Virus record (IMG/VR): IMGVR_UViG_3300006802_000065
Span: 1 to 31,049 of that record
Reading direction: 5' to 3' (one strand)
From: a virus
Length of the DNA: 31,049 bases
Part shown: positions 2,842 to 31,049 of the stretch, piece by piece
How the letters are laid out: each line of letters begins with the position of its first letter
Numbering within the stretch: the first letter of the stretch is position 1
Position numbers and translations under genes: made by a program
The notes under the pieces: model-generated
The model's input: the letters and a program-made list of their open reading frames with translations, nothing else
Told to the model about the DNA's origin: nothing
The model's database searches: none

Positions 2842-3182
2842 TGTCTGCTGAGTCTTTGGCCATTCTGATGGCTGTAGCATCTGGGGTCTTTGGCATCATC
2901 ACCAGCATCATTGGCTGGGTGGTGTCTCGCCTGGTGGCGCAGCTTGATAGACTTCGAGAGCGCACTGAGCAGCTGGAGCAACGGAACGCAGCCAGCCAAG
3001 CCAGCCTGAGCGCCCTGCCAACACTGGACAGCTTCAAGGAATTGCTGGTGACTCAGCTGGAGCCCATCAATGGGCAAATGAGCGCCATTGCCAAGCAAGT
3101 TGGCGAGATTGCCACACAGGTGGTGGATGTGGACAGGCGAGTGATCAGGCTTGAAGAGCGCAGCAAGCACGGAGACGGGTGA
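2841..3182 (+). CDS. N-anchored coiled-coil protein, inner-membrane spanin candidate
   Basis: The start is taken as ATG 2841, which overlaps the previous stop in TGATG; a GTG at 2838 is possible. The 113-residue product has a membrane span at about residues 5-30 (ILMAVASGVFGIITSIIGWV), then a long charged heptad-rich segment from about 32 to the end with a central break (LSALPTLDS). This is the topology of an i-spanin (Rz-like): anchored in the inner membrane with a periplasmic coiled coil. Short phage coiled-coil proteins of unknown role look similar. The adjacent lipoprotein gene favours the spanin reading. The stop overlaps the next start. Confidence 0.55.
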   Translation: MSAESLAILMAVASGVFGIITSIIGWVVSRLVAQLDRLRERTEQLEQRNAASQASLSALPTLDSFKELLVTQLEPINGQMSAIAKQVGEIATQVVDVDRRVIRLEERSKHGDG

Positions 3183-4243
3183 TGTGGGTCAATGCCAGAG
3201 AAGCTGCTGAGCACTTTGGCATAGGCCAAAGCACCCTGAGAAGCAGATGTGAGCGTGGCACAGCTGGCTGTCCCCTCAGGCGCAAAGACCCAGCCCATCC
3301 ACTGCGCTGGCAGTATTGGACAGGCCAGCACCCACCCACCACTGAAGACTTCCTGAGCGCCACACAGCCATTGCCTGTGGAAGTGATGAGACCCCAGCCC
3401 TTGCCAGATGAGCCCATTGAAGAATGGATCAAGGCCAGGGTGCGCGCCAGCAAGCGCAAGCGAGCAAAGCACAATCCAGCGCGCCTGGTGACACTGCCAG
3501 CTGAGCCCATGGCCATTGCCATCATAGGCGATCCACACGTTGACAATGATGGCTGTGACTGGTCTGCGCTCCATGACCACATCAAGCTGCTGTCAGAGCC
3601 AGGGGTGCTGATCACTTGCATTGGGGATATGCAGGACAATTGGATTGGGCGCCTTGGAAAGCTCTACGCCAATTCATCAAGCCTGGCTTCTGAGGGGTGG
3701 AAAGCCAGCGAGTGGCTTCTGAGCCAGGGGCAGTGGCTTGCAGTGGTGGGTGGCAATCATGATGCATGGTCACATGTGCCAGGCCTTGACCCCTTGCAGT
3801 GGCTTTGTGAGCAGAATGGTGTGAAGTGCTATGACCCTGATGAACTGCGCCTATATCTGCAATGGCGAGACAGGCCAGACCTTGAAGCCCTGGTGATCAA
3901 GCTCAGGCATGACTTCAGGGGGCGGTCATGGTTCCACCCCACCCATGGCCCACATAAAGAGGCCCTGCTTGATGGTGAAGCCCACATCTTTGCAGCTGGC
4001 CACATCCATCAGTGGGGTGAACTGACCAGCGAGCACAGACGTGGCAGGGTCACAAGTGCAATCAGAGTGAGGGGATATAAGAAGGCTGATGGCTATGCCA
4101 AGCGGGGTGGCTTTCCTGAACAGCAGCATGGGGAGTCTGCTTTAGTGGTGGTTCAGCCTGAGATTGAAGGGCCTGGCAGATGTCAGATCTTTTGGGATCT
4201 GGCGTCTGGCATCAAGTGGCTTAGGCATCTGCGCTCAGGCTGA
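3182..4243 (+). CDS. HTH-metallophosphoesterase fusion
   Basis: The start is ATG 3182, overlapping the previous stop (TGATG). The product has 353 residues. Residues about 1-46 look like a MerR/Nu1/excisionase-type winged helix (NAREAAEHFGIGQSTLRSRC, then a wing ending LRWQYW). A Pro-rich linker and a basic patch (KARVRASKRKRAKH) follow. From about residue 110 comes a calcineurin-like phosphoesterase with all the metal motifs visible: GDPH (116-119), GDMQD (148-152), GNHD (191-194) and GHIH (273-276). A di-metal phosphodiesterase or nuclease acting on DNA or nucleotides is expected. The DNA-binding front end suggests a nuclease or phosphatase brought to specific DNA. The 3' end overlaps the convergent gene by 23 bp. 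Confidence 0.85.
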   Translation: MWVNAREAAEHFGIGQSTLRSRCERGTAGCPLRRKDPAHPLRWQYWTGQHPPTTEDFLSATQPLPVEVMRPQPLPDEPIEEWIKARVRASKRKRAKHNPARLVTLPAEPMAIAIIGDPHVDNDGCDWSALHDHIKLLSEPGVLITCIGDMQDNWIGRLGKLYANSSSLASEGWKASEWLLSQGQWLAVVGGNHDAWSHVPGLDPLQWLCEQNGVKCYDPDELRLYLQWRDRPDLEALVIKLRHDFRGRSWFHPTHGPHKEALLDGEAHIFAAGHIHQWGELTSEHRRGRVTSAIRVRGYKKADGYAKRGGFPEQQHGESALVVVQPEIEGPGRCQIFWDLASGIKWLRHLRSG

Positions 4244-4742
4244 TGATGTGCGCCATGACCTTGCTGGCACGCTCTTCTTCAGTGCCAGGGCCTGAGATGA
4301 TGCCAGCGATGTCTTCAAGCGCTGGCGCCTGGCTGAGCTTGAAGCCCATGGCATCCACAATGCCACAGATGATGCTGGCAGCTTCAAGGGGTGTGGCGTC
4401 ATAGCTCACACCATCAATCTCATCATGCACCAGGGCTTCCAAGTCACACTTGGCATTGTCAAGCCACTGCACAGCCATGGCCTCAATGGCAGGCTCAGCG
4501 CTGGCCAGATCCACAGGGCCATGCTCGCCATGCAGCTGGCCATCTTCAAAGACGAGATCAAGCCAGTCACTGCCACCACCAATCTGAAGCAGGTGATCAG
4601 CGTCATAGATGAAGGGGCTGGTATCGCCAGCGTCAAAGCGCTGTGGCATGGCAGCATTCAAGGCCTCAATGGCTTCAATGCTGTTGAGATCCTGGCTGAA
4701 GACATAGATGGCAAGGCGCTGAGCAGGGGTCAATTCAAACAT
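4221..4742 (-). CDS. Hypothetical acidic protein, last gene of the leftward block
   Basis: The start chosen is ATG at 4742 (MFELTPAQ), because the upstream strand reads AAAGGA seven bases before it; the frame is open further upstream into the leader. The product has 173 residues and is acidic and largely helical, with no recognised domain, signal peptide or membrane span. It has its own promoter/leader copy (4743-4845) nearly identical to that of the first gene of the block, so it can be transcribed independently. Its 3' end overlaps the convergent metallophosphoesterase gene by 23 bp with no terminator between. Function unknown. Confidence 0.75.
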   Translation of the reverse strand: MFELTPAQRLAIYVFSQDLNSIEAIEALNAAMPQRFDAGDTSPFIYDADHLLQIGGGSDWLDLVFEDGQLHGEHGPVDLASAEPAIEAMAVQWLDNAKCDLEALVHDEIDGVSYDATPLEAASIICGIVDAMGFKLSQAPALEDIAGIISGPGTEEERASKVMAHIISLSADA

Positions 4743-4845
4743 GGTTTGTCCTTTGGTGTGATGTGGGCTCCATTGCTCACATCGATGATTCATGTTTAAG
4801 CCCACTTATCCCCACTGTCAACGGAATTCTAGAAAATGTTCTGAC
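4743..4845 (-). promoter_or_regulatory. Promoter and leader module, copy A
   Basis: On the - strand this holds a perfect -35 box TTGACA (complement of 4816-4821), a TTAAAC about 16 bases downstream as a candidate -10, an AT-rich upstream stretch (ATTTTCTAGAATTC) and a leader with GCAATGGAGCCCA and AAAGGA before the ATG at 4742. The same ordered elements occur at 8697-8790. The upstream end overlaps the last codons of the resolvase gene. Confidence 0.65.
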
Positions 4846-5308
4846 TGGCTTGATGCAAGGTCAATTCAAGGTGTGGATCTTCACCAGGCGCAGCATGGCA
4901 CTTGACCACCCTGGCATCCACCACCAGGCGATCATCATGAACCACCCCAGCCCTTTGCAGCGCATCAAGGGCGCTCTTCAAGAAGTTATCAGCATCAGGC
5001 GCTGTGAGCTTTGGTGTGCGCTCAGTGCAAGCGCGCCAGCTGGCTGAGGTAAAGCCAATGCTTTTGAGGCTGGCAGGCAGGCTGGCAGGCCTTGCACACA
5101 CAGCCACCACATCAACCCTGAGAGGGCCTGTCAGTGGTGGTGTGGCGCCCCATTGAAGGCGCAGCTGCACAGCGCTGGATTGATACCACTGCTCTAGCTT
5201 GGCTGGTGTATAGACTGTGGCCTTTCTGCCCCTGGCAGCTGCGCGAGGTCTCATATAGGCCACAGGCTGGCCTTCAATGGTCAATGTTGTGATGCTGTCT
5301 TGTGTCAT
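4829..5308 (-). CDS. rusA: RusA-like Holliday-junction resolvase
   Basis: The product has 159 residues, near the usual 120-150 of the family. The C-terminal half carries the RusA signature: PDADNFLKSALDAL (about 104-117), then GVVHDDRLVVDARVVK (about 121-136). The Asp residues in PDADN and HDD match the metal-binding acidic residues of the family. RusA homodimers cut four-way junctions, resolving recombination intermediates or trimming branched DNA before packaging. The start ATG at 5308 follows AGGGG and overlaps the upstream gene by 35 bp, implying coupled translation. The N-terminal basic segment (RPRAAARGRKA) fits DNA contact. Confidence 0.85.
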   Translation of the reverse strand: MTQDSITTLTIEGQPVAYMRPRAAARGRKATVYTPAKLEQWYQSSAVQLRLQWGATPPLTGPLRVDVVAVCARPASLPASLKSIGFTSASWRACTERTPKLTAPDADNFLKSALDALQRAGVVHDDRLVVDARVVKCHAAPGEDPHLELTLHQASQNIF

Positions 5309-5963
5309 GGATCAGGCCCCTGGCTCTATCAAGCGCAGCCTGCCTGGTGATGAAGATCTCTTCAGACCATGGATCAAGCAAGCGCCATTCTCTTCTAATG
5401 CGCCTTGCCACAGTAGCCTGCAAGCCTGTGGTTTCATCCTGCCAGCTTTCAGCGCCTTCTACGATCTCCACCAGGCGCCAGCCCCTAATGTGCTTTGGCA
5501 TCTGCTTTGGCAGGCTGATGTCAGTGTCTGCCTTCATCCACTGCTTGACTTGATCCTGAGTCACACCACACAGCTTGGCCACTTTGGCTGATGAGTAGCC
5601 AAGGGCAACAAAGCTCAGCGCGCGCAATCGGCAGCGCTCAGACTCGCCATGCATCTGCTTCAGTGGCTGCAAGCCTTTGAGCCTGATGGCTTTGAGCACA
5701 CTTGACGAGCTGCGCCTGGTGATCTTCACAATCTCAGGCACACTCAGGCCCTGCTTGCACAGCCTGCCAATGTGGTCAATCTCAGCATCAGACATGGCCT
5801 TGACCTTTGGGGCTGGCGAGCCAAGGCCAAGGGCTTGCTTCACTCGATTGACAGCCCTGGTGGATCTGCCAATGGCTTTGGCGATCTCACCTGTGAGCTC
5901 GCCAGCCAGGGTGCGTGCTTTGATGGTGGCGATCTCTTCAAGGCTCAGTGGCACTTTCAACAT
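5274..5963 (-). CDS. Triple helix-turn-helix DNA-binding protein
   Basis: The product has 229 residues. Three consecutive HTH-like units can be read: about 8-45 (GELTGEIAKAIGRSTRAVNR), about 58-97 (GLSVPEIVKITRRSSSSVLK) and about 110-145 (GYSSAKVAKLCGVTQDQVKQ). The rest is charged, with an Arg/Trp-rich segment near 185-200. The ATG at 5963 follows GAGGG at a good distance. It precedes rusA in the same transcript and overlaps it. Such tandem HTH arrays occur in transposase-like and regulatory phage proteins. A role as a regulator or replication accessory is inferred, and no catalytic domain is visible. Confidence 0.7.
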   Translation of the reverse strand: MLKVPLSLEEIATIKARTLAGELTGEIAKAIGRSTRAVNRVKQALGLGSPAPKVKAMSDAEIDHIGRLCKQGLSVPEIVKITRRSSSSVLKAIRLKGLQPLKQMHGESERCRLRALSFVALGYSSAKVAKLCGVTQDQVKQWMKADTDISLPKQMPKHIRGWRLVEIVEGAESWQDETTGLQATVARRIRREWRLLDPWSEEIFITRQAALDRARGLIHDTRQHHNIDH

Positions 5964-6026
5964 GGGCAGGCCCTCACAGCAAAGGGCGCTTCAGGTAATG
6001 CACTTGATCACATCGCTCTTAAGCTA

Positions 6027-6347
6027 ATGATCTGTCCGGTCCCTAGTTGTGACATCAGAGACACTGGCCGATCAAGCGCAAGCACCATCAGCACCAGGCC
6101 CCTTGCACAGGCTTGCACTGTGTGTGGCAGCTGGCCTGCCAAGGGGATAAGCCCACAGGATCATGGTTCCATATTGGGTGCCAATCAAGAAAGTGATCAG
6201 CAAAGAGGGCAAAGCCACTGCGGGCGCTGGCATTGCTTGAAAGCTGATCTGCCAGCCCATCACCCACCAAAGGATAAGAAGCGATGCATCTGCCAGATCA
6301 AGGCGCTGCTGAGGCACTGCCCCTCAGAAGGTCTCTTCAGCGCATAG
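6027..6347 (+). CDS. Doubtful Cys-rich small ORF opposite to its neighbours
   Basis: This frame gives 106 residues from ATG 6027, with Cys pairs at the start (CPVPSC), middle (CTVCG), and end (HCGRWHC, CIC), a pattern that could bind zinc. It ends just before a GC-rich hairpin at 6359-6374. Against it: there is no ribosome binding site, it is opposite to both neighbours, and the same frame stays open far upstream antisense to the HTH gene, so openness alone is weak evidence. Listed so that the gap is not left undescribed. Confidence 0.2.
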   Translation: MICPVPSCDIRDTGRSSASTISTRPLAQACTVCGSWPAKGISPQDHGSILGANQESDQQRGQSHCGRWHCLKADLPAHHPPKDKKRCICQIKALLRHCPSEGLFSA

Positions 6348-6358
6348 GCTCAGCTGTT

Positions 6359-6374
6359 GGTGGTGAGCACCACC
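6359..6374. terminator. Small GC-rich hairpin GGTGGT/ACCACC
   Basis: The sequence GGTGGT-GAGC-ACCACC folds into a 6-bp stem with a 4-base loop and is followed on the + strand by CCTTT. It could act as a weak terminator, or as an attenuator within the leftward transcript. The T tract is too short for a strong call. Confidence 0.25.
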
Positions 6375-6428
6375 CCTTTGAGCTTTGAAGGCCATGGCGG
6401 GCTGAGCCATCCACCATGGCCAGGCATG

Positions 6429-6776
6429 TCAGTGTGTCAATGCCTCAGACTCAGGCTGTTGACTCAAGTTAAGCTCAAAGATCATCTGAGCACAGGCCCT
6501 GAGCCCATAGGCTGCAAAGCCCTGTCCTGCCCTATCAAGGCCACACAGGCGCCAGAGGCCATCATGCCAGTCAAGCCAGCCAATGCCCTTGATATAAATG
6601 GTGTGCTTGAAGGCTGAAGCGCTCTTCATCCTGGCTGGCAGTTCTAGCACTTGGAGCCAGTTCGCCACATGCTGGCAGGCCTTCTTCTGTTGTGCGCCAT
6701 CATCGCCATCAGCCATCAGCTCAGCGCCCTGCCTCAGGGCAGTGGCAATGTAGTCATAAAGTGGGGCTGTCTTCAT
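6429..6776 (-). CDS. Hypothetical protein
   Basis: The start is ATG at 6776, overlapping the upstream stop in ATGA (6773-6776). The product has 115 residues. The first half is helical and charged (PLYDYIATALRQGAELMADG, then QQKKACQHVANWLQ). The second half is aromatic and Gly-rich (YIKGIGWLDWHDGLWRLCGL). No family, signal or span is recognised. It is co-translated with the double winged-helix protein and followed by the 465 bp gap. Function unknown. Confidence 0.65.
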   Translation of the reverse strand: MKTAPLYDYIATALRQGAELMADGDDGAQQKKACQHVANWLQVLELPARMKSASAFKHTIYIKGIGWLDWHDGLWRLCGLDRAGQGFAAYGLRACAQMIFELNLSQQPESEALTH

Positions 6777-7726
6777 TGCGCACCCCCTGCCATGGTCAAG
6801 GTCATTTTGATGGGCTTCTGCTTTGTGGGCGCCTGCTTCGTCGATGCCAGCCCCTTTGAGCGCAGCCAGTAAATGCATCTGATCGCTGTGCTGGTGCTGA
6901 TGTCTGCTTCTTTGGCGAAAGTGGCAGCGCTTGCCACCACTTGAAGATCAGCCCCCTGCCACTTGGCGAGCCTGGCACAGGCGCCGATGATCGCCTTCAA
7001 GGCCTCAGGGTCTGCTTCACCAGTCTTACGATTGGCCAGTGACTTCAGCGCGCCAGCCAGCCAGTCTGGCCTGGTGATGGCTGTGGGCTTTGTATCAGGC
7101 AGGGTCAAGATCCAATGACAGCCATCTGAGGCCCATGGGTTATCATCATTTGCAGGCCTGATCAGGCCAGCGAGCTTCAGCCAGCGATTGATCTTCTGCA
7201 CCTGTGACTTGCTGCACCCCAGATGCCTTGCCACCTTGACCTTATCTGCCTTGATGACATCACCCACCATGACCCCTTTAGGCTGAGTGGCATAGACCCT
7301 GATCACTGATAGGATCGCCTTGGTGGATGGCTCGCCTGGCTTGCGCTTCTGCACTGCCTTTGACCCAGCATCAAGCCAGTCTTCAGTGGTGGCGCGCTTG
7401 CTGGCTGGCGCTGGCGCGCTGGCAGGCTCAGGCAAGGCGATCTGCGCAAGCCTCAGAAGCGCCTGATGTGTCTCACCAGGCGCCAGAGCCACATCAGGCT
7501 GTGGCAGTGGATCAGGCTCGCTGGCAGGCTCAGGCGCTGAAGAGCTCTTCAAGGCTTGCTGCCAGGCCAGCTGGCCACCAAGGCTGGCGCTGATGTCTCG
7601 CACATCCACCAGGGCTTCAATCAATGATTGATGCTCGCTGGCTGGCTGGCGCGGCGCCTGCTTCAGTTCTTTGATGGCATCGCTTGCCATCTGATGAATG
7701 GTGAGAATGGTGCTGATCTTCAACAT
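6773..7726 (-). CDS. Double winged-helix DNA-binding protein, early regulator or replication factor
   Basis: The start chosen is ATG at 7726, preceded by AAAGGAG; the product has 317 residues. A helical N-terminus (1-60) is followed by a Pro/Ala/Glu-rich linker (about 63-110), then two winged-helix units: about 160-190 (VARHLGCSKSQVQKINRWLK, then LAGLIRP) and about 265-297 (ADISTSTAIRCIYWLRSKGL). Each has the pattern of a recognition helix followed by 'L..LGLI/L', as in phage replication and regulatory wHTH proteins. It may bind early operators or help initiation. It is the third gene of the leftward block, and its SD lies within the end of the preceding gene. Confidence 0.7.
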   Translation of the reverse strand: MLKISTILTIHQMASDAIKELKQAPRQPASEHQSLIEALVDVRDISASLGGQLAWQQALKSSSAPEPASEPDPLPQPDVALAPGETHQALLRLAQIALPEPASAPAPASKRATTEDWLDAGSKAVQKRKPGEPSTKAILSVIRVYATQPKGVMVGDVIKADKVKVARHLGCSKSQVQKINRWLKLAGLIRPANDDNPWASDGCHWILTLPDTKPTAITRPDWLAGALKSLANRKTGEADPEALKAIIGACARLAKWQGADLQVVASAATFAKEADISTSTAIRCIYWLRSKGLASTKQAPTKQKPIKMTLTMAGGAQ

Positions 7727-7728
7727 GG

Positions 7729-7956
7729 TCACTCCTTTGGTGGTGGGCATTGGTGTATGAGTCTCACAAGCAGCGCCCCCTTTGATGCCTGCAAGATGGG
7801 CACAATGTGCCCTGTGACGATCTGTCTTGATCTGGGGTGCCAGGCGCGCTGAGTGCCCTTGCCAGCTTCAAGCGCCCACAGTGAAGCGCTCAGCAGCTGG
7901 CCCTTGAAGTGGGGGCTGGTGTCCAGCCCCACAGCGCCACACATGGCACACATCAT
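7729..7956 (-). CDS. Small protein with N-terminal CxxC
   Basis: ATG at 7956 gives 75 residues; a TTG at 7962 overlapping the upstream stop in TTGA would add two. It begins MMCAMCGAVG, a Cys-x2-Cys pair like half of a zinc ribbon, with further His and one Cys near the end (HQCPPPKE). The last codons contain the ribosome binding site of the next gene (AAG GAG TGA), showing tight coupling. Position between SWIM and winged-helix genes fits a small DNA- or RNA-binding accessory. The metal site is incomplete in sequence, so function stays open. Confidence 0.55.
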   Translation of the reverse strand: MMCAMCGAVGLDTSPHFKGQLLSASLWALEAGKGTQRAWHPRSRQIVTGHIVPILQASKGALLVRLIHQCPPPKE

Positions 7957-7958
7957 CT

Positions 7959-8696
7959 TCAATCCTTGGCAAGCTCAGTGATGACTGCGCTGGCATCTGC
8001 GCTGAACTGCCTGATGGCAGACACCACATCAATCTTGTTGCGCCTGATGGTGGGCGCCTGATCCAGCGTCTGGCGCCACATGCTGGCCACAGTCTGTGCG
8101 CGAGTCTTTGGGGTGAATTCGGGGCTGAGCGCAGCATAGAGGCTGCGCGCTGCAAACTCCCATGCTGGCGCAAGCTCAGCAGCTGACAGATGCCAGCACT
8201 TACGATGTGCGGGACAATTGCAGGCTTTGCCACCCACCACTGAATAGGCCTTCTGCGCATCAGTGCGACTGCGCACAAAGACACCGGGCACACCATCAAC
8301 CTCATAGGCTGGCGCCGCCGCCATCAGGATGGCTTCAGCTTCAAGCTCAGCAGCATCATCTTCAGTGTCTTCAGTGGTCATGGTGTCTGCCCACCACTGC
8401 GCAACGATGTCTTCAGTGTCAGGCAGGATATCATCGCTGATGTTGACCCACTGCCCAGCGCAGCGCGCCATCACCAGGCCGTCACTGTAAAGGGTCAAGT
8501 CATGGCCAATGTGCAGTTCAGCGCAGCCACCAATCTCTTCAAAGCGCAGAAAGGTCTGGCCATTGACCTTTGACCACAGGCCATTGAGCGCCTGCAAGCG
8601 AGCCTGCTTGACAGTGCCAGTCTTGATGAAGGCTTGCACCATGACATGAAGAAGGGTGGCTGAGGTCTCAAGCAGTTGTGAAAGTGTGTAGTCCAT
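7959..8696 (-). CDS. SWIM zinc-finger protein, first gene of the leftward early block
   Basis: The start is ATG at 8696 (MDYTLSQ) after AAAGGAG; the product has 245 residues. A SWIM zinc finger CxCx(5)CxH is visible as CNCPAHRKCWH (C159, C161, C167, H169), preceded by a beta-type segment ending YSVVGGK, the usual SWIM context. SWIM modules bind DNA or protein partners. An acidic run (TTEDTEDDAAELEAEA, about 107-122) precedes it. It is the first leftward gene, expressed from the control region at 8739-8790 with a duplicated leader. It may bind host DNA or a host protein early in infection. That role is inferred. Confidence 0.75.
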   Translation of the reverse strand: MDYTLSQLLETSATLLHVMVQAFIKTGTVKQARLQALNGLWSKVNGQTFLRFEEIGGCAELHIGHDLTLYSDGLVMARCAGQWVNISDDILPDTEDIVAQWWADTMTTEDTEDDAAELEAEAILMAAAPAYEVDGVPGVFVRSRTDAQKAYSVVGGKACNCPAHRKCWHLSAAELAPAWEFAARSLYAALSPEFTPKTRAQTVASMWRQTLDQAPTIRRNKIDVVSAIRQFSADASAVITELAKD

Positions 8697-8790
8697 GATG
8701 GCTCCTTTGGTGATGGGCTCCATTGCCCTGCCATGCATCTAACTTAAACCCACCCACCCCCACTGTCAACAGAATATTGGAAAATAATCG
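8697..8790 (-). promoter_or_regulatory. Leftward early promoter and leader module, copy B
   Basis: On the - strand a perfect TTGACA (complement of 8764-8769) is followed by a G/T-rich spacer and TTTAAG/TTAAGT about 16-17 bases on. Upstream lies the AT-rich ATTTTCCAATATTC. Downstream the leader has GCAATGGAGCCCA, then CACCAAAGGAG before ATG 8696. The order and most bases match copy A at 4743-4845. Confidence 0.7.
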
Positions 8791-8805
8791 AAGTGGGTTG
8801 ACAGT
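8762..8805. promoter_or_regulatory. Inverted repeat between divergent promoters, operator candidate
   Basis: ACTGTCAAC (8762-8770) and GTTGACAGT (8797-8805) form a perfect 9-bp inverted repeat with a 26-base AT-rich centre. The arms contain both -35 boxes. They may simply be two facing promoters, or they may be an operator pair for the HTH protein encoded at 8859. Confidence 0.45.
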
Positions 8806-8829
8806 ATGCAAGGCCATTGGCATTTAAAT
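8798..8829 (+). promoter_or_regulatory. Rightward early promoter
   Basis: A perfect -35 box TTGACA at 8798-8803 is followed, 17-20 bases on, by the AT-rich CATTTAAAT (8821-8829) as the -10 region. The -10 match is poor, so activation or a non-standard sigma contact is possible. It drives the HTH gene at 8859 and the replication genes. GTTGACAGT here (8797-8805) is the exact inverse of ACTGTCAAC at 8762-8770. Confidence 0.55.
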
Positions 8830-8858
8830 GGGTGTGCCGATGAATGGAGGGCATTGAG

Positions 8859-9110
8859 ATGAAGACACAGAGGAAGAAGATCAAGGCCTGGCTGGCCTTC
8901 AATGATCGCTCAGTGGCTCAGCTGGCTCAGGCAGCTGGGTGCGCCACACAGAGCCTTTATGATTATTTGGCAGGTCGCACCCCATGGCGCGCTGATGTGG
9001 CCCTGGTGGTCTCGCTGATCACTGGCATTGAGCTTGCCAGCCTGCTTGACCCTGATGGCAAGTGCGCCAGCGCAGCTGATGACTTCTGCAAGGATCTGGA
9101 CAATGATTGA
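8859..9110 (+). CDS. Cro-size helix-turn-helix regulator
   Basis: The start is ATG 8859 after GGAGG at 8846-8850 (8-base gap); the product has 83 residues. A basic N-terminus (KTQRKKIKAW) is followed by an XRE/Cro-like HTH at about 17-40 (SVAQLAQAAGCATQSLYDYL), then a helical dimerisation-like part. It is the first rightward gene beside the divergent control region, so it probably represses the early promoters on both sides. No longer CI-type repressor with a cleavage domain is present in the genome, so it is either a Cro-like switch or a lone regulator of a lytic phage. The DNA site is not known. Confidence 0.75.
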   Translation: MKTQRKKIKAWLAFNDRSVAQLAQAAGCATQSLYDYLAGRTPWRADVALVVSLITGIELASLLDPDGKCASAADDFCKDLDND

Positions 9111-9453
9111 TCTGACCACCATCAAAGACCACAGGCCATGCAAAGGGCCTGAGAAGCTTGGCAAGTCTGAGAAGGATGAAGCCATCAGACACTATGTGTG
9201 GGGGCTGCGCTGGCAGAAGCGCCAGCAACACAGAGTGCCTGTCAGGAAAAGCTACATCGGTATGCAGTGGGCTGCTGATGGCAGCGCTGGCCTGGTGTGG
9301 GTGCCTAAATATGAGAAGGGCATGTCTGGCCTGTGGTATCGCCTTGATGACTTCAAGTGGTGGGGATATCACAGGCGCTCAGCTCTAAACGCTGGCATCG
9401 AAGCCAGATTCAAAGCAGCCACCAGGCTTGCCAGCGATAAGGCAGGTGTGTAG
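9103..9453 (+). CDS. Hypothetical basic, Trp-rich early protein
   Basis: The start is ATG 9103, after AAGGA and overlapping the previous stop by 8 bp; the product has 116 residues. It is rich in Lys, Arg, Trp and Tyr (YVWGLRWQKRQQHR; GLWYRLDDFKWWGYHRR), which suggests nucleic-acid contact. No family is recognised. It lies between the HTH regulator and the replication initiator, so an early DNA or RNA related role is likely but unproven. Confidence 0.6.
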   Translation: MIDLTTIKDHRPCKGPEKLGKSEKDEAIRHYVWGLRWQKRQQHRVPVRKSYIGMQWAADGSAGLVWVPKYEKGMSGLWYRLDDFKWWGYHRRSALNAGIEARFKAATRLASDKAGV

Positions 9454-9528
9454 CCTGATACACCAATGGCGAGCGGGTTGCAGCCCATATGCTCGCCATT
9501 GGTGAAAACTCAAAACTTGGAGATCATT

Positions 9529-10407
9529 GTGATCAACCCTACAAAGCCAGTCAAGACCTATGACTATCAGCGCATCATCAGAGATGATCAGCGCCTGAGC
9601 GCATCACACAAGCTCACCTTGTTTGTGCTCACCACCTATCTGCCATCAGTGCACCCATCAGTCACAGCCATTGCCAAAGGCGCCAGGCTGAATATCAAGA
9701 CTGTCTCAAAGGCGCTGAGCGCACTTGAAGACCTTGGTTACATCAAGCGCATCAAGCGCCCTGGCAAGCCTTCAAGCTATCAGCTGACCACCCCCAAATC
9801 AGACCCTACCACCACCCCCAAATGGATACCCACCCCAAACGAGTACCCACCCCAAACGAGTACCCAACACCACCCCCAAATGGATACCCAACACCACCCC
9901 CAAATGGATACCCACGAAGAAATAAAGAAGAGACAAAGAAGAGAGCAAGCAAGCGAGGGGGCGCACATCGCCAGCAAAGAAGCCAAGGCAGAGCGCCTGG
10001 CTGGCTGGCAGGATGTCTGGAATGAAGTGGTGGGTGTGGGCGCCTTGCCAACACTGGCTCAGCTCAGGCGAGTCAGGCTTGATGTCACTGAAGACATGCT
10101 GAGCCACTGTCTAGGTGAAACTGCGCTGGCTGTGGGCACCAAAGACATTGGCAATGCCAGAGGGCTCTTCTTTGCCGAGCTGCGGAAAGCCAAAGGCGAT
10201 GAAGCGCCATGGACAAAAGAGCAAGTCAAGCGCGCGCTCTACCCTGCCAGCCTCACCAAGGGCAGGGATATGCGCAGACCTTCAAGCCAGCCAGCGCCAA
10301 AGCCACCACCCCCTGAGACTGAAGAAGAGAAGCAAGCCAGACGCGCGCGCACAGCTGCTGTGCTGGCCTCGCTGGATCGATCCATTCTCTTTGGGGGTGA
10401 TGCATGA
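9529..10407 (+). CDS. Replication initiator with N-terminal winged helix and internal iterons
   Basis: The chosen start is GTG 9529, preceded by GGAG; an ATG at 9466 would add an unlikely tail. The product has 292 residues. Residues about 24-87 form a winged helix common in phage replication proteins (HPSVTAIAKGARLNIKTVSK, then ALEDLGYIKRI). Residues about 88-129 are a low-complexity Pro/Thr/His/Gln stretch coded by the repeat array at 9787-9914. A basic region and a helical C-terminus follow, where a helicase-loading domain would be expected. The next gene is a DnaB-type helicase, coupled by ATGA. Function by analogy to lambda O: binds origin repeats in its own gene and recruits the helicase. 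Confidence 0.75.
   Translation: MINPTKPVKTYDYQRIIRDDQRLSASHKLTLFVLTTYLPSVHPSVTAIAKGARLNIKTVSKALSALEDLGYIKRIKRPGKPSSYQLTTPKSDPTTTPKWIPTPNEYPPQTSTQHHPQMDTQHHPQMDTHEEIKKRQRREQASEGAHIASKEAKAERLAGWQDVWNEVVGVGALPTLAQLRRVRLDVTEDMLSHCLGETALAVGTKDIGNARGLFFAELRKAKGDEAPWTKEQVKRALYPASLTKGRDMRRPSSQPAPKPPPPETEEEKQARRARTAAVLASLDRSILFGGDA
9787..9945. repeat. Iteron-like repeats plus purine-rich tract: candidate replication origin
   Basis: Five full copies of ACCCC(C)AAANNNNTACCCA are seen: ACCCCCAAATGGATACCCA at 9814-9832, 9872-9890 and 9896-9914, and ACCCCAAACGAGTACCCA at 9832-9849 and 9849-9866. A degenerate copy starts near 9790. The same DNA word is read in two different frames, so DNA rather than protein is conserved. 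Right after it, 9915-9945 is an A/G-rich strand (GAAGAAATAAAGAAGAGA) that could melt, as beside the lambda origin iterons. Confidence 0.7.
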
Positions 10408-30861: not shown

Positions 30862-31049
30862 ATGGGTTTCTTTTCATGGGGGATCACACCTTCTGAGGGT
30901 GTGAAGGGCCCATATGCTGACTATGACACAGCCTTGACAGCGCTGAGGGCTGACGCTGGCGCCAGTGATGGTGATCTGTACCAGCTTGCCAATGATATGA
31001 CCTTCAACGCCTTCACCAGTGAAGGGCCTGGCATCCTGATACCTTCTGA
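30862..31049 (+). CDS. 5' part of the surface/tail-fibre gene continued at 1-763
   Basis: ATG 30862 starts MGFFSWGITPSEGVKG and the frame continues through the join, since bases 30927-31049 equal 1-123. Joined length is about 275 residues. The short hydrophobic-aromatic start (FFSWG) is not a signal peptide but may be a docking segment, as in fibres that attach to the tail tip. It is coupled closely to the gene before. Confidence 0.65.
   Translation, partial: MGFFSWGITPSEGVKGPYADYDTALTALRADAGASDGDLYQLANDMTFNAFTSEGPGILIPS
30927..31049. repeat. Direct terminal repeat, copy 2
   Basis: Identical to bases 1-123. It supports a closed circle or permuted genome of about 30,926 bp. Confidence 0.95.

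Follow-up and report, generated by a model that had tools for sequence, protein, structure and literature searches.

The leftward strand of the phage analyzed here carries a putative promoter and leader of about 100 bp at two places, which raises the question of why the last gene of an early operon should be preceded by a second version of the segment that stands before the first. The window, meaning the whole 31,049-nt stretch of IMG/VR record IMGVR_UViG_3300006802_000065 that was analyzed, is a tailed-phage genome of 31 kb. The 123 bases at both ends (1–123 and 30927–31049) are identical, which makes the record either a complete circle or a circularly permuted phage genome. Pfam and PHROG scans of the window recognized genes for terminase, portal protein, a DnaB-like helicase, an O-like replication protein and RusA. 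A terminase profile search of GTDB genomes reached only one distant MAG contig, and no host could therefore be assigned. Within the O-like replication gene (9466–10407) lie three imperfect copies of a repeat of about 45 bp (9787–9915), possibly origin iterons as in lambda.

The early operon runs on the minus strand from 8696 down to 4221. Its first gene (gene B, 7959–8696, 245 aa) follows copy B of the module and has a CxC...CxH zinc-finger-like motif; a weak SWIM match was found in three of six aligned members of this family, the window's own member having none. The single gene behind copy A (gene A, 4221–4742, minus strand, 173 aa) was 96% identical in a close relative and had no match in Pfam, PHROG or phage records. 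The start codons behind copies A and B are at 4742 and 8696 (corrected positions). Directly upstream of copy A is a RusA-like Holliday junction resolvase (4829–5308, minus strand; PF05866, E 1.9e-18), and divergent from gene B is a small HTH protein, likely a repressor (8844–9110, plus strand; phrog_4583 transcriptional repressor, E 1.8e-6), which is kept beside copy B in relatives. An exonuclease-like gene (3179–4243) and gene A are convergent and overlap by 23 bp; gene A is hence the end of the leftward operon, and the overlap leaves no space for an intervening terminator. Within the operon, 465 bp (5964–6428) had no convincing gene, and the ORF at 6072–6317 showed no codon-position bias; divergence of this stretch from the close relative was 3.9%, as conserved as coding DNA. 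GenBank phages gave no match to gene A, gene B or 5274–5963, nor to the region as DNA, and AlphaFold models of genes A and B were too poor for interpretation. That the two genes are themselves duplicated paralogues was ruled out, as there is no similarity between them.

The initial annotation had described the module as present twice, and alignment bore this out. On the minus strand, copy A (4743–4845) and copy B (8697–8790/8800) were 73% identical over 89 columns (blastn within the window, E 3e-10), with the listed blocks of shared letters present. Their local alignment score was 58, whereas 2000 dinucleotide shuffles reached 33 at most, and nowhere else in the window came near it. The likeness exceeded chance when the −35 box was set aside, since the leader alone, after the promoter spacer, scored 34, a value reached by none of 5000 shuffles. 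The spacer alone was borderline (24 of 5000), and the stretch upstream of the −35 box had no significance by itself (1037 of 5000), becoming meaningful only once relatives are added. Blocks common to both copies included TTGACAGTGGGG (4810–4821 and 8758–8769) and GCAATGGAGCCCA (4764–4776 and 8714–8726), and GCAATGGAGC occurred exactly twice, both times inside the modules. A weaker echo of the leader had been noted before the start at 7726; this proved to be the ribosome-binding part only (ACCAAAGGAG, best E 0.05 in the window), with neither promoter nor hairpin.

Searches with genes A and B found a single close relative, IMGVR_UViG_3300025674_000355, which is about 95% identical to the window over the early region and keeps both copies. 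A wider group (L026–L031, L033–L036, and L043–L048) was obtained by terminase search at 71–79% identity, and module placement was read only where the contigs of these relatives reach the early region. Every genome whose sequence spans both sites, namely the window, the close relative, L034 and L035, has two modules in matching positions, so that the control module precedes both the first and the last part of the leftward operon in each. L034 and L035, which belong to the relatives with 71–74% identical terminase, represent two lineages besides that of the window; the letters of their modules differ, as does the gene that follows copy A. In L028, L034, L035, and L044, module B is flanked by the HTH gene and the gene-B homologue, with gene-B identity of about 30%, while module A lies directly behind rusA in L034 and L035, before a gene of 96–97 aa unrelated to gene A. 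IMG/VR DNA pattern scans, using the leader or the combination of UP element, promoter and stem, retrieved no member beyond the phage family that the searches above had yielded. In L033, a 34-kb relative whose early region is different, sites that resemble promoters and are followed by strong hairpins precede start codons (1414 and 1499, minus strand; 6510–6587, plus strand).

The history of the module may be less simple than the duplication first proposed. Copies within a lineage were 73–81% identical, whereas the same position compared across the two main lineages was about 59–71% identical. Two copies certainly exist, but a single old duplication is uncertain given that likeness within lineages is at least as high as at the same position across them. 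Homogenization, repeated duplication, or shared constraint would each fit, and the approximately 95 nt available allow no firm choice. Between the window and its close relative, the promoters differed by 10–11% and the genes mostly by 2–6%, the module being no better conserved than its surroundings. Mere inheritance from a recent duplication, with a functionless shared leader, would account for copies that resemble each other most within a lineage. Two modules nevertheless persist where early proteins are only about 30–50% identical, they stand before unrelated genes, and they retain compensating stem changes and fixed spacing, all of which makes this reading very improbable.

Both copies have the layout of a sigma-70 promoter. 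Copy A comprises an AT-rich, UP-element-like stretch CAGAACATTTTCTAGAA (4827–4843) that overlaps the last RusA codons, a −35 box TTGACA (4816–4821), a proposed −10 box TAAACA (4793–4798) after a 17-nt spacer, and a ribosome-binding site CAAAGGA (4749–4755) common to copy B. The corresponding parts of copy B are TCGATTATTTTCCAATA (8775–8791), TTGACA (8764–8769), the proposed −10 box TAAGTT (8741–8746), again after 17 nt, and the ribosome-binding site AAAGGAG (8702–8708), all on the minus strand. UP elements were scored against the consensus AAAWWTWTTTTNNNAAA (PMC2412878). Both copies agreed at 10 of 14 positions and were two of eight positions genome-wide tied at the top score in the window. 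In the close relative the best match within the stretch scored was copy A (11/14), and in L034 (A), L035 (B), and L044 (B) the module was the best position on either strand (13/14 each). The spacer was 17 nt in all ten modules, and the −35 box was TTGACA or close to it.

The −10 boxes were more uneven. Those of the window are weak (3/6 consensus each) and those of the close relative are TAAACA and TAGATT, while the wider group has TATATT, TATTGT, TATATA or TATAAA, copy A of L034 and L035 carrying TATATT or similar. Consensus −35 and −10 boxes spaced by 16–18 are present in L034, L035, L028, and L044. Under one fixed promoter rule, modules A and B were among the predictions in L034 (two of three) and L035 (two of four), and module B was the sole prediction in L028 and L044 (one of one each), all with strong hairpins, compared with 4–6% at random positions. 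The window promoters, with their perfect −35 boxes, fail this rule because their −10 boxes are poor; they may be weaker or in need of help. A conserved G-quadruplex in the G-rich spacer was rejected, as it is missing in L044 B and in copy A. Terminator prediction for the minus strand gave none between 8696 and 4742, and read-through should therefore reach gene A in addition to the transcripts that it has to itself. The suggestion of equal expression for the first and the end gene is unsupported, and equal levels are unproven.

Comparison with relatives identified the leader block GCAATGGAGCC as the loop plus 3′ arm of a stem-loop. In copy A this hairpin is GATGTGAGC-AATGGA-GCCCACATC (4760–4783, minus strand) with one A–C mismatch, its counterpart in the close relative being a perfect 10-bp stem; in copy B it is GGGC-AATGGA-GCCC (8715–8728, minus strand). 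The arms pair as GATGTGGGC/GCCCACATC, GGGC/GCCC, GCGGC/GCCGC, GCAGC/GCTGC, and GGAGC/GCTCC around loops that read AATGGA (two lineages), GATGGA, GATGA, GCTGG or GCTAG and are always closed by GC...GC. Over eight distinct arm pairs, 85.4% of stem cells were paired, compared with 65.6% after shuffling, with double changes in eight cells at three positions. The covariation score was 0.440 (0.157 shuffled), no shuffle of 500 was as good and every slid register was worse, a strong rather than final result since the arm pairs are few and were aligned, with loops removed, around the structure that we had proposed. Perfect stems of like quality occurred at 2–6% of random positions in these sequences, and folding energy alone was unremarkable in most single leaders. 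In each of the ten modules, the stem began 8–12 nt downstream of the −10 box, which places it at about +2 to +6, the predicted 5′ end of the mRNA. A conserved upstream peptide (ATGGAG...) was rejected for the leader, because L034 A and L044 B lack the ATG and the copies differ in how its frame relates to that of the gene.

Another covarying hairpin, whose loop TCCAC is constant, directly abuts the ribosome-binding site of a 123-aa gene in L034 (2687, GCAAGC-TCCAC-GCTTGC), L035 (2641, GCAGAC-TCCAC-GTCTGC), and L028 (1367, GCAGGC-TCCAC-GCCTGC), on the minus strand in each; no promoter was found before it.

On balance, the modules are probably strong-expression cassettes serving both ends of the early operon, each made of an UP-like element, a sigma-70 promoter, a 5′-terminal stem-loop and a ribosome-binding site, although our confidence in this is only somewhat better than even. 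Sequence comparison establishes the duplication, its retention in relatives, and the covarying hairpin with its fixed position; promoter activity, the start sites and stabilization of mRNA by the module are what we infer from it. The UP-like element and the TTGACA box would recruit host RNA polymerase through the alpha C-terminal domain and sigma-70, and transcription would start about 7 nt after the −10 box. A short GC-rich stem-loop (AATGGA loop in the window) would be transcribed first, followed by the strong ribosome-binding site, and this stem-loop would most likely shield the mRNA from 5′-end-dependent decay and hold the ribosome-binding site open. The cassette would be used twice, heading the operon and recurring behind rusA; at the latter place it would provide the last gene with a separate mRNA, stable and well translated, besides read-through, and in relatives it would serve a cluster of small variable genes. 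The mismatch in the copy A stem and the poor −10 boxes of the window count against such a cassette, as do the unremarkable folding energies of most single leaders and a conservation between window and close relative that does not exceed that of the surroundings.

The loop counts against a pure stabilizer, since it is partly conserved (AATGGA in two lineages) where structure alone would not need it. The hairpin could instead be the site of an RNA-binding protein or a modified polymerase, acting as a translational operator or put-like antitermination RNA and co-regulating both transcripts. In favor of this, it immediately precedes the ribosome-binding site in the opening stretch of each early transcript, and its loop recurs or varies slightly within a constant GC...GC closure. 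Yet loop length and letters vary among close relatives and even within one genome (AATGGA and GCTGG in L034), no Rfam match of any kind was returned in 4000–9600 up to E 1, and no candidate protein is tied to the hairpin, so that we consider this reading unlikely. It is rather unlikely, too, that the hairpin of the leader is a phage regulatory RNA element of a new kind whose loop is recognized by a factor of phage or host and which couples the ends of the early operon, with the TCCAC hairpins as a second class.

Alternatively, the shared letters might be mainly operators at which the divergent repressor (8844–9110) shuts off the operon and the end gene together; the leader palindrome may then belong to the site on the DNA. 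A perfect 9-bp inverted repeat, ACTGTCAAC ... GTTGACAGT (8762–8805, arms 8762–8770 and 8797–8805), joins and overlaps the −35 boxes of both divergent promoters, GTTGACAGTGGG of copy B recurs at copy A, and the spacers of the two copies are borderline alike. However, the repeat is present at B only, the second, inverted site being absent from copy A, and the common GTTGACAGTGGG coincides with the −35 box. Copies A and B of the relatives have no obvious operator in common beyond the UP element, −35 box and hairpin, and lysogeny has no firm footing because no integrase was recognized among the scanned window genes, despite the repressor-like HTH gene. The palindrome arms, moreover, change freely with pairing kept and the loop is five or six long within one genome, which favors a role at the RNA level, as do the TCCAC hairpins that abut ribosome-binding sites where no promoter was found. 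Operators as the main content of the module are therefore quite unlikely, while the GTTGACAGT repeat at module B is possible as a DNA operator in its own right.

If the cassette reading is right, this phage group, which is uncultured and has no close isolate, offers a concrete and testable control unit in which promoter and leader hairpin are kept together before unrelated genes. Such natural combinations of promoter, stabilizer and ribosome-binding site could provide reference points for early gene dosage in phages as well as portable expression parts.

Each part has known counterparts. UP-element sigma-70 promoters are typified by rRNA promoters (PMC2412878), which the module resembles in the AT-rich stretch just upstream of the −35 box (13/14 in L034 A, L035 B, and L044 B); modules of the window and close relative differ in matching at 9–11 of 14 positions, and those of the window in their weak −10 boxes. 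Stem-loops at the 5′ end are established mRNA stabilizers (reviewed in PMC7509114), as in the ompA, papA, and aprE leaders (PMC3997798, PMC7509114). The module likewise has a stem-loop at the (here predicted) 5′ end followed by an exposed ribosome-binding site, but it is known from comparison only, its loop letters are partly conserved and it comes with a duplicated promoter. The closest phage parallel is the start-associated sequence of Cluster K mycobacteriophages, a 13-bp element (GGGATAGGAGCCC) with 11–19 copies per genome, about half of which adjoin an inverted repeat (PMC3203893). Both are short repeats before start codons of non-structural, often unrelated phage genes. The Cluster K elements are positioned as translation-start elements, whereas the module occurs in two copies, each linked to a promoter, and has a covarying stem from which the ribosome-binding site is separate; it fails as a member of that class on both pattern and copy number. 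The put antitermination RNA of phage HK022 is likewise a hairpin RNA close to where two early transcripts begin, but it consists of two stem-loops and is not known to have a ribosome-binding site attached, as the present module does. All components of the module are of known kinds; the covarying hairpin matches no Rfam family. It is the arrangement of the components that is modestly new.
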